A DNA stretch of 52,263 nucleotides from Dehalococcoidia bacterium. GTDB lineage: Bacteria; Chloroflexota; Dehalococcoidia; DSTF01; JALHUB01. Within the stretch, counting starts at the first letter, position 1. Every line of letters starts with the position of its first letter. Positions 15,309 through 39,202 of the stretch are shown piece after piece. Under the pieces are notes generated by a model, which searched no databases, had not been told where the DNA came from, and saw only the letters and a program-made list of their open reading frames with translations. Made by a program: the position numbers and the translations under genes. The DNA lies in the NCBI GenBank assembly GCA_030018455.1, contig JASEFU010000011.1:1-52263 (forward strand), in the 5' to 3' direction.

Positions 15309-15495
15309 CCCTCCGAAGCAGCTCTTCGGCAGCCCGGCGACCCTAGTTCCAGCTCTGCCCAATGCGTCCCTTCTTGGACGGAGAGACCGTCTCTCCAGAT
15401 TGCCGCCCGATGCGTCCCTTCTCGGCGGGGAACCGTAGACCCGTAGCTTTGCGCCGGCCGGTTTCCCGGCCTTTGCCCTTTCGGAGACGTATTCT
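15309..15495 (-). promoter_or_regulatory. c-di-GMP-I (GEMM-I)-like riboswitch, copy 2 (gene-proximal)
   Basis: The minus strand carries the conserved GEMM-I core in order: GGGCAAAGG, a stem closed by a GAAA tetraloop (CCGGGAAACCGG), CGCAAAGCTACGGGTCTA, and the 3' arm GGGTCGCCGGGCTGCC. P1 can form from TCTCCGAA with TTCGGAGG. The second stem is enlarged by an insert of roughly 100 nt. The last arm, CTTCGG, can also pair with the adjacent CCGAAG, a possible switch that competes with P1. It heads the leader of the Thr-Pro surface gene. The class is assigned from memory of the consensus; a covariance search would settle it. Confidence 0.8.
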
Positions 15496-15532: not shown

Positions 15533-15643
15533 GCCTCCCCCGCTCCGGGTCCCTCAGCCCCTAGAAGCCGGCCCGCCGTCCTTCGATTGAAGCGGCGGGC
15601 TGAAGGACTTCCCAAGCTAGCCCTTCGATAGTCCGGCCGTCAT

Positions 15644-15765
15644 ACCCCCGGTAACCCGTAGGGGGGCTTAGACCCGTGACTTTGCGCTCCCCCTGAGGGG
15701 GAGGCAGGCCTGATATCGCCTGCTGGCACAGTTTCCCATGCCTTGCCTTTTCGGAGGCGTATTCT
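15644..15765 (-). promoter_or_regulatory. c-di-GMP-I (GEMM-I)-like riboswitch, copy 1 (gene-distal)
   Basis: The minus strand begins AGAATACGCCTCCGAAAAGGC, nearly the same as copy 2 (AGAATACGTCTCCGAAAGGGC). It continues with AAGGCATGGGAAAC and an enlarged stem, then GCGCAAAGTCACGGGTCTAAG and the 3' arm CTACGGGTTACC. P1 can form from CCTCCG and CGGGGG. The shared opening bases show the two aptamers arose by duplication. The 5' stem is less regular than in copy 2. A T-rich/A-rich step (AAAAAAAGAATAC) at its 5' edge may mark the region just after the promoter. Confidence 0.72.
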
Positions 15766-33788: not shown

Positions 33789-34142
33789 TGGTGGAGACGG
33801 GGGAGAATTGAACTCCCCGTCCAGAAGAAGAACGCCCTGAATCTCCTACAAGCTTAGCCGGCTCTTTGGTCTTGCCTGGCGGGCTCCTGCCGACCGGATT
33901 CCGCCCGGCCAGTCGATTAGTCTTGAGCGGCCCTTATCGACGTCCGGGCCGCAGCACCTCGACTAGTCGGCGCTTGTCCGCGGCCCATCGAGGAGAGGCT
34001 GCGGAAAGCGTCGCTGCCTCAGTTAGGCAGCGAGGGCAAACTCACGTTCGCCGGTTATTTTTCTGCCACCTGTTTTTCGAGGGTGATGGCACCTCGGCTT
34101 GCAATCCAGGTCCGTCGTTCCCTGTCGAACCCTTTCGTCCCC
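33789..34142 (-). ncRNA. ssrA: transfer-messenger RNA (tmRNA)
   Basis: tmRNA rescues stalled ribosomes with SmpB and tags the protein for degradation. On the minus strand the 354-nt RNA begins GGGGACG, which pairs with CGTCTCC before the encoded CCA end at 33789. The T-arm with GTTCAATTC (34-nt 3' segment) and the early GGGTTCGAC are typical. The tag reading frame (34052-34023) encodes GEREFALAA then TAA, followed by a TAA-proximal GGCAGCG stem. The Ala-Ala end fits ClpXP recognition. A TATAAT box lies 6 bp before the first base. smpB is 32 bp upstream on the same strand. Confidence 0.95.
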
Positions 34143-34174: not shown

Positions 34175-34627
34175 CTAGCGTCGATGGCGCAGCGCCCGCT
34201 CGATCTGCCGCTCCGCCTCGCGCTGAGCGATGCGCTCCCGCTTGTCGTGGACGCGCCGGCCGCGCACAAGCGCCAGTTCCAGCTTCGCGCGGCCGTTCTT
34301 TAGATAGAGGCGCAGCGGCACCAGCGTGAGCCCCTTCTCCTCGACGGCGCTGCTCAGCTCTTCGATCTGCCAGCGGTGGAGGAGCAGCTTCCGCTTGCGG
34401 CCCGGCTCGTGATTGAAGCGTCCCGCCGGCGGGTACTGGGCAATGTGCGCGCCGTGCAGCCACATCTCGCCGTCTTCGGGGCGGGCATAGGCGTCGCGGA
34501 TGTTGACGCGCCCCTCGCGAATCGACTTGATCTCGGTGCCGGTGAGGGCAAGCCCGGCCTCGTATGTGTCGAGGACGTGGTACTCGTGGAGCGCTTTGCG
34601 GTTGAAGGTGATGACCTTCTCTGCCAT
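34175..34627 (-). CDS. smpB: SsrA-binding protein SmpB
   Basis: The 150-aa tmRNA partner that brings ssrA to stalled ribosomes. Family landmarks are NRKALHEYHVLDTYEAGLAL (start), GTEIKSIREGRVNIRDAYA (middle) and a basic C-terminal tail (HDKRERIAQREAERQIERAL). The length is typical. It is encoded directly before ssrA on the minus strand and 27 bp after the S41 protease gene, so the protease, smpB and ssrA may be partly co-transcribed. Confidence 0.97.
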   Translation of the reverse strand: MAEKVITFNRKALHEYHVLDTYEAGLALTGTEIKSIREGRVNIRDAYARPEDGEMWLHGAHIAQYPPAGRFNHEPGRKRKLLLHRWQIEELSSAVEEKGLTLVPLRLYLKNGRAKLELALVRGRRVHDKRERIAQREAERQIERALRHRR

Positions 34628-37315: not shown

Positions 37316-37963
37316 CTAAAGGTCTATGTGATCGCGCGGATTGGCGGAGGCTTGGTCGAGGCCGAGACGCGACGGTGTGAGCGGGTCTTGCGGACGCGAG
37401 GCCGTCTCCCTCCAGCGCGCGACTACTGCCGCCGTAGACCTCTCCAGCTCGAGCGCTATGAGTTCACGCTCCCCTCGTGAGGACCAGGCTTCGTGCTTGC
37501 TGGCAGACGGCTTCCACTCGTCTCTCATGGGGAGCAAAGCGGCCGTCACCGTCACTGCCGCCAGGGCCAGTGTCGCCGCGGGCGAAGCGCCGGCGAGAAA
37601 GGCCAGTGCTGCGAGCGCGATACCTCCGGTGGCTGCCATCACACCCTGCCACGCCGGCAGACGCCAGTAGGATACCTCGATGCTCACCCGCTTCTGGTGC
37701 GTTATGCGTTCCCTGTCGCGTCTTGCCTCGGCGGCGCGTGCGGCGTCATACGCTGCCCTCTCGAGCGGATTGCCGAGCACCGCAAATGCCCTGTTGAGCT
37801 CCTCCAGACGTCTCTTCGCGCTGGGGTCTTCGTCCATCTCCGACTGGTACTTGCGCGCCAGGTGCCAATACGTCTGCCCTACCATCACGTGGTCGGCGCT
37901 GGGCGCCAGCCGCATAACTGCGTAGTAGTCTTCCCCGCTCATTTCCTCGCTCCCAAGGGTCAC
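37316..37963 (-). CDS. J-like domain membrane protein lacking HPD
   Basis: A 215-aa protein. Residues about 11-72 match the J-domain pattern (EDYYAVMRLAPSAD, TYWHLARKYQSEMD, LEELNRAFAVLGNPLERAAYD), but the HPD tripeptide needed to stimulate DnaK is QSE here. A basic linker is followed by two hydrophobic segments (about 105-122 and 128-147) and a hydrophilic C-terminal tail. It is therefore a membrane-tethered J-like protein that probably binds other proteins without driving Hsp70. Start is GTG 37963 or ATG 37942; the ribosome sites do not decide it. Its gene follows the selenoprotein gene by 87 bp on the same strand. Confidence 0.75.
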   Translation of the reverse strand: MTLGSEEMSGEDYYAVMRLAPSADHVMVGQTYWHLARKYQSEMDEDPSAKRRLEELNRAFAVLGNPLERAAYDAARAAEARRDRERITHQKRVSIEVSYWRLPAWQGVMAATGGIALAALAFLAGASPAATLALAAVTVTAALLPMRDEWKPSASKHEAWSSRGERELIALELERSTAAVVARWRETASRPQDPLTPSRLGLDQASANPRDHIDL

Positions 37964-38050: not shown

Positions 38051-38317
38051 TTATGTCAACAACGGCCGCACTTTCCCCTGGATCTCGGAAAGCTCGGGGA
38101 ACCGCCCCGTGGCCGCCTTCGAGTACACCACTTCTCCGTTCACCGACACCTCGAACCTGCCTCCTCCCGACGGCACCAGCCGCAGCGAGTCCACCCATTC
38201 GCCCATCTCCGCCAGCAGTTCCGCCGCCATCCAGGCGGCCCGCAACAAATAGTTTCAAGGTCTGCAATACTCGATTTCGATCGTCAGTCTCTCCTTTTCG
38301 GCCGTCATCTTGTCCAT
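38051..38317 (-). CDS. SelW/Rdx-family selenoprotein with in-frame UGA (CxxU)
   Basis: An 88-aa thioredoxin-like protein of the SelT/SelW/SelH (Rdx) family, thought to act in thiol redox control. Read from ATG 38317 (GAGAGGAG upstream), the frame gives IEIEYCRP, then TGA at 38257-38255, then NYLLRAAWMAAELLAEM and, to the TAG-free end, the Rdx core GGRFEVSVNGEVVYSKA and GRFPELSEI. Cysteine-type relatives have CxxCNWLLRAAW at this place, so the TGA stands exactly where the second redox Cys lies and must encode selenocysteine. A 6-bp hairpin with a UGGAU loop follows 15 nt after the UGA, as bacterial SECIS elements do. Standard gene calling stops at the TGA and misses the gene. Confidence 0.87.
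38223..38239 (-). promoter_or_regulatory. putative bacterial SECIS element
   Basis: On the minus strand GCCGCC-TGGAT-GGCGGC forms a perfect 6-bp stem with a 5-nt loop. The loop begins 22 nt after the Sec UGA and has G as its second and third bases, within the range and G requirement of known bacterial SECIS hairpins bound by SelB. Confidence 0.72.
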
Positions 38318-38428
38318 TTCTCCTCTCTGTGTGTTAATAGGCTGAGTCCTCTCGCAGGAAATGATAGGCCGGAGAGGGGCCTTGTCAATCGGGGCCGCAT
38401 CGTCGGCGAAATGCAGGGAGAGCGTTTC

Positions 38429-39202
38429 TTGAAACATCCTGTGCTGCCGCTCCTGCTGCTTATTATCTCTGTCCCCATCTTGGCCGGCTGTCCTACGACC
38501 GAAAGGCGCGCTTACGTGGCGCTGGGCGGCAGCTACGCCGCGGGCGCTGGGGGCGGCGATTATGAAAAGAGCTATGCCTCCCTCTTCCACGCCTTTCTTC
38601 AAGAAGAGACGGAAGAGCAACTGTCCCTGCGTAGCCTCGCCGTCGAGAACGAGACCACGGCGTCGATGATCGGCGATGGACAGCTCGCCAAGGCTCTGGC
38701 GGAGCTGAGGTTCCGCAATCAGGATGAATCGCCAGACAATGACACCATTGCCATCACGCTCCAGATCGGCGGCGAGGAGGCGATGTCGCTTCTGCTGGAA
38801 GATGGGCCCTGCCGCCCGCCCGCGACCCTGGACGACCGTGAGTGCGAGGCGGCCTTCCACGGGATGTTGAACGAAGCGCGCCTGAACGTCCCCGCAGTCC
38901 TGAGAGCCCTGCGCGTGGCCGCCGGTCCGGAAACGGACGTCCTGGTCATCAACTACTTCTACCCCTTCCCGACGGCAGAGCGTAGTGAGACGGGAGAGGA
39001 ACTTTATTCGGCTCTCAACGAAATCCTCGAAGAGGCAGCGCGTATGCCGGGCGTCGATGCCACGCTTGTCGACATCGCCGGCGAATTCAGGGGAAGAACG
39101 CAGGAACTGACGGCGCCGCTCGATGAGGGAGGCGGCCGCGCCCCAAATGAGGCCGGTCACGCCCTGATCGCGTCCCTGTTGGAGCGGGCGCTGGAAAAGT
39201 AG
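38429..39202 (+). CDS. SGNH-hydrolase-like lipoprotein
   Basis: A 257-aa lipoprotein. TTG 38429 is preferred (GGGAGAG 6 bp upstream): it gives MKHPVLPLLLLIISVPILAGC, a perfect lipobox with Cys as the lipidated residue. ATG 38411 is possible. The SGNH fold is suggested by VALGGSYAAG (block I, usually GDS), TLQIGGEEA (block III, usually GxND) and APNEAGHALIA (block V). The nucleophile Ser and the catalytic His remain, but the block I Asp and block III Asn are changed, so catalysis may be altered or lost. It is divergent from the selenoprotein gene, and an amidase-like gene follows. Confidence 0.72.
   Translation: MKHPVLPLLLLIISVPILAGCPTTERRAYVALGGSYAAGAGGGDYEKSYASLFHAFLQEETEEQLSLRSLAVENETTASMIGDGQLAKALAELRFRNQDESPDNDTIAITLQIGGEEAMSLLLEDGPCRPPATLDDRECEAAFHGMLNEARLNVPAVLRALRVAAGPETDVLVINYFYPFPTAERSETGEELYSALNEILEEAARMPGVDATLVDIAGEFRGRTQELTAPLDEGGGRAPNEAGHALIASLLERALEK

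Follow-up and report, generated by a model that had tools for sequence, protein, structure and literature searches.

The window (the whole 52,263-nt stretch of DNA that we analysed, from a genome labelled Dehalococcoidia bacterium) carries on its minus strand, from 38317 to 38051, a reading frame that runs MDKMTAEKERLTIEIEYCRP-UGA-NYLLRAAWMAAELL...RPLLT-TAA and in which the single UGA is codon 21. The features of the locus are as follows.

38051..38317, minus strand: predicted coding sequence of a SelW-like (Rdx family) selenoprotein, 88 aa, motif CRPU, TAA stop
38255..38257, minus strand: in-frame UGA, predicted selenocysteine codon (residue 21 of 88), based on the second Cys of CxxC in Cys homologues
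38223..38239, minus strand: predicted bacterial SECIS hairpin, 6-bp stem GCCGCC/GGCGGC, loop UGGAU
38051..38308, minus strand: alternative and perhaps likelier coding sequence from the second ATG, 85 aa, suggested by the sister gene in genome G001
38318..38331, minus strand: Shine-Dalgarno-like run of purines GAGAGGAGAA upstream of the first ATG

The product of the downstream gene (37316-37963, minus strand) is J-domain-like, apparently without the HPD motif, and likely has a membrane part, and the divergent gene on the other side (38411-39202, plus strand) encodes a GDSL-type lipase-like lipoprotein. In G001, too, a J-domain-like gene follows selW and the lipase-like gene adjoins it.

If its UGA is translated as Cys, the frame matches Pfam Rdx over residues 12-84 (2e-24, 86 bits against a cut-off of 22.6) and the NCBIfam model TIGR02174 'CXXU_selWTH' (5e-17, 61.9 bits against a cut-off of 34.2). 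The initial annotation had proposed that a UGA replaces the second redox Cys of an Rdx protein, that Rdx sequence continues beyond it to a normal stop and that the 88-aa product should align with the Rdx/SelW families. All of this is borne out: CRPU aligns with the motif of 57 CxxC relatives, the Pfam match extends well past the UGA in a frame that ends in TAA, and both family models score above their cut-offs. The gene thereby carries the defining marks of Rdx/SelW (PF10262), namely a domain over cut-off, CxxU at the second Cys and family sequence through to a normal stop. With NF041051 (SelTWH_Campy) the protein reached 76.4 bits, under the 88-bit cut-off, and it is therefore not a SelTWH_Campy equivalog. 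A six-frame search of the genome (2.38 Mb, 97.7% complete) returned this locus as the only Rdx match, with '1 TGA' inside. Nearly full-length matches to solved Rdx structures (Atu0228, 2fa8; 2p0g; 2ojl; 2obk; 2oka; E 8e-17 to 7e-13) lead us to expect a thioredoxin-like fold; they are deposited under names such as hypothetical protein or selenoprotein W-related protein. In the protein from the window, the second motif residue is a predicted Sec.

Where translation begins is less certain. A ribosome site had been proposed before the first ATG, and the purine-rich stretch GAGAGGAGAA is indeed present, but its assignment to that ATG is doubtful: the spacing is at most 2 nt to the first ATG (38317), which is short, and about 11 nt to the second (38308), which is long. 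The sister gene in G001 has GGAGG 8 nt upstream of its only nearby ATG, and its protein begins MSEKLTIEIEYC, so that its start, M-S-E-K-LTIEIEYC, falls roughly in line with M4 of the window protein. Since the sister start lies near the second ATG, the start in the window is uncertain and the product may have 88 or 85 aa.

If the UGA were a true stop, the locus would yield either a shorter downstream protein (e.g. from the TTG at 38248, 65 aa) or a 20-aa peptide alone. A mechanically called ORF does exist at 38051-38248, but translation of this kind would lose both the CxxC/U redox motif, though it is kept in every relative, and the IEIEYC strand that is conserved upstream of the UGA, and we consider it very improbable.

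Cys or Sec had been expected at position 21 in close relatives, and every motif-bearing relative has one or the other codon there: after removal of copies, 150 distinct Rdx loci carry a CxxC or CxxU motif, 57 with Cys and 93 with UGA, the latter always at the second position. An Rdx gene is present in all 18 genomes of the order. The window's own family (two genomes) has the UGA form alone, another family has a single copy of each form, Cys and UGA, and two more have only Cys copies. Across the class, 121 of 294 genomes have an Rdx match, and the stops inside these matches, among the matches listed, are all single UGAs and never UAA or UAG. Another 42 loci come from named public genomes of Chloroflexi, Gemmatimonadota, Latescibacterota, Planctomycetota and others. 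The nearest named relative, 'Dehalococcoidia bacterium Baikal-deep-G119', is 54% identical and has Cys at the UGA position, and no SelA match was found in its genome. That genome (G045) belongs to the class in which the window is listed, so the window most likely stems from an uncultured member of the Chloroflexota in the class that bears this name, a name given by the depositor. A tree of the 150 sequences over 74 columns lacks the resolution for a count of Sec/Cys switches: its minimum is 8 changes, only 1 of which is required by branches with good support. Four genomes, which we label G270, G119, G196 and G232, have Cys-type and UGA-type SelW genes next to each other (L114, L118, L143 and L148), and in the tree such neighbours are distant copies, not recent duplicates.

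The sister gene (L024 in G001, from the same family) is 79% identical in protein sequence to the window gene and keeps the UGA, and its genome also has a tRNA-Sec. After the UGA, the two genes differ by 14, 5 and 35 substitutions at codon positions 1, 2 and 3, respectively. Counted by codon, 28 of the changes in these 68 codons are synonymous and 14 non-synonymous, whereas identity over the initial 120 nt of the 3' flank is 31%. The third-position bias indicates that selection acts on the protein encoded beyond the UGA.

The initial annotation had described a SECIS-like hairpin that follows the UGA, with its loop 22 nt after the UGA and a G in the loop, which agrees with the predicted structure: the hairpin begins 15 nt after the UGA, 21 nt separate the UGA from the loop, and the loop begins at nt 22. 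The bSECIS model specifies a loop of 3-9 nt with a G in its first two bases, at 16-37 nt from the UGA, and an MFE of at most -7.5 kcal/mol (PMC13188914). The window hairpin lies inside these limits (21 nt, loop UGGAU, 6-bp stem, and -19.6 kcal/mol for the 54-nt stretch). As a single sequence set against shuffles it is only weakly unusual (z -2.1 for the 54-nt post-UGA stretch against dinucleotide shuffles; p about 0.16 for the hairpin against synonymous shuffles), and the longer post-UGA region is predicted to fold differently as a 54-nt and as a 66-nt stretch.

It is the comparison with relatives that makes the hairpin significant. In 58% of UGA forms and 0% of Cys forms, 5 bp or more of stem can pair in the register of the window hairpin around a loop that contains a G; a CVPU group pairs in a neighbouring register, where the bases compensate (GGGCCG/CGGCCC and GCGCCG/CGGCGC). 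When only proteins matched for the residues AAW are compared, 29 of 30 UGA forms, as against 3 of 17 Cys forms, have 4 bp or more of stem in either of the two registers (Fisher 3e-8, uncorrected for kinship). Because these proteins share the same AAW residues, the hairpin goes with the UGA and is not a by-product of the encoded protein. The position-specific hairpin likewise separates Sec from Cys forms (p = 1.5e-10, kinship not corrected); post-UGA free energy relative to synonymous shuffles did not separate them (p = 0.49).

These comparisons also bear on whether the gene is a pseudogene or a sequencing error, in which a Cys codon (TGC or TGT) became TGA and the gene is dead or misread. Such a change needs only one base, and the assembly is a draft of 26 contigs. 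Nevertheless, the sister genome and 93 distinct relatives share the UGA, in every case at this codon, a SECIS-type hairpin accompanies it, and the substitutions beyond it bear the mark of protein selection, all of which leaves this explanation with a very small chance of being correct, smaller than that of a true stop.

The initial annotation had made its reading depend on selenocysteine machinery in the genome, and the bacterial Sec-decoding gene set proved complete: selA, selB, selC (tRNA-Sec, UCA) and selD are all present. SelA lies at C1:232993-234327 (2.8e-170) and SelB on C2 (318.5 bits for the main piece and 339 joined, cut-off 242). The tRNA-Sec is at C3:61175-61267 (74.7 bits against a gathering threshold of 47), and ARAGORN gives its anticodon as TCA (UCA). 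SelD, at C7:76281-77216 (L018, 5.4e-106), has one in-frame UGA in LASCAGUAGKAG (CAGU), the known Sec site of SelD. This UGA makes selD a second gene of the genome that needs UGA read as Sec. Genome-wide reassignment of UGA (e.g. to Trp) or its reading by another suppressor, in favour of which we found nothing, is as remote an explanation as a pseudogene or sequencing error, given that selA, selB and the neighbouring genes are open under table 11, that selD has its single UGA at its Sec site, that Trp is not seen at the UGA position in relatives and that a tRNA-Sec with a UCA anticodon is present.

At the level of the class, SelA scored over cut-off in 196 of 294 genomes. It is present in 54 of the 62 UGA-bearing genomes among the matches listed versus 142 of 232 others (Fisher 7e-5), the 54 being near-full copies, with a fragment in two more. 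selA presence alone is a weak marker, however, because many Cys-only genomes have it as well. Seven of the eight UGA genomes without a full SelA (again among the matches listed) have a strong tRNA-Sec (66-82 bits), the exception being G010 (about 90% complete, 240 contigs). In four Cys-only genomes without SelA, the tRNA-Sec score does not exceed 47.4 bits, which is what ordinary tRNAs reach by cross-matching. One genome, G015, has two strong tRNA-Sec matches (C81:821-913 and C25:10-102), which may reflect a duplicated contig end.

Judged from the sequence evidence, it is very likely (probability about 0.96) that the window gene is a genuine SelW-like selenoprotein gene, with its UGA decoded as Sec by SelB and the SECIS element to give a CxxU redox product. 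Sec-tRNA(UCA), made by SelA and SelD, would be loaded on SelB; SelB would bind the hairpin just 3' of the UGA, and the Sec-tRNA would then decode the UGA as selenocysteine. The product, to go by its family, would be small and thioredoxin-like, with a Cys-x-x-Sec pair, and it probably acts as a thiol/selenol oxidoreductase.

Bacterial genes of this kind have been on record since 2005, and the window gene adds a member. SelW-like selenoproteins were described from the Sargasso Sea (PMC1088965) and, in several bacterial phyla, from sequenced genomes (PMC1794560), and the family is catalogued as PF10262, CxxU (PMC13188914). A 2006 survey gave Chloroflexi three selenoproteins from three families. 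Our literature search turned up no SelW paper for this lineage, although this does not prove that none exists. The window gene resembles bacterial SelW-like (SELENOW-like, PF10262) genes in its family, its Cys-x-x-Sec motif, its small size and the position of the SECIS directly after the UGA, but differs from the catalogued ones in being a new sequence from an uncultured lineage with motif residues CRPU. Although it leaves the general picture of selenoproteins unchanged, the gene suggests that selenium is used by an uncultured lineage of the class in which the Dehalococcoidia-labelled Baikal genome is also placed. It is also easily missed, since standard gene callers would cut or drop it, as happens with many selenoprotein genes.

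A broader, tentative reading, which we hold to be somewhat less probable than its negation, is that the SECIS hairpin constrains the SelW-like protein in this class and that Sec and Cys forms do different jobs, not replacing each other. Its first part would account for the Met or Thr after AAW, the fixed Ala codons and the G-containing loop of Sec forms, as against the Leu that most Cys forms with AAW have at that place, without a hairpin. Its second part follows from the old Cys copy that stands beside a Sec copy in some genomes, which might indicate different jobs. With so many matched Sec and Cys relatives, the sequence changes that a SECIS demands can be tested cleanly.

Elsewhere on the minus strand of the window, two tandem matches to the c-di-GMP-I riboswitch (15325-15487 and 15624-15757; 62.2 and 42.5 bits) lie 136 nt apart, and a tmRNA gene (33789-34142) adjoins smpB (34175-34627).
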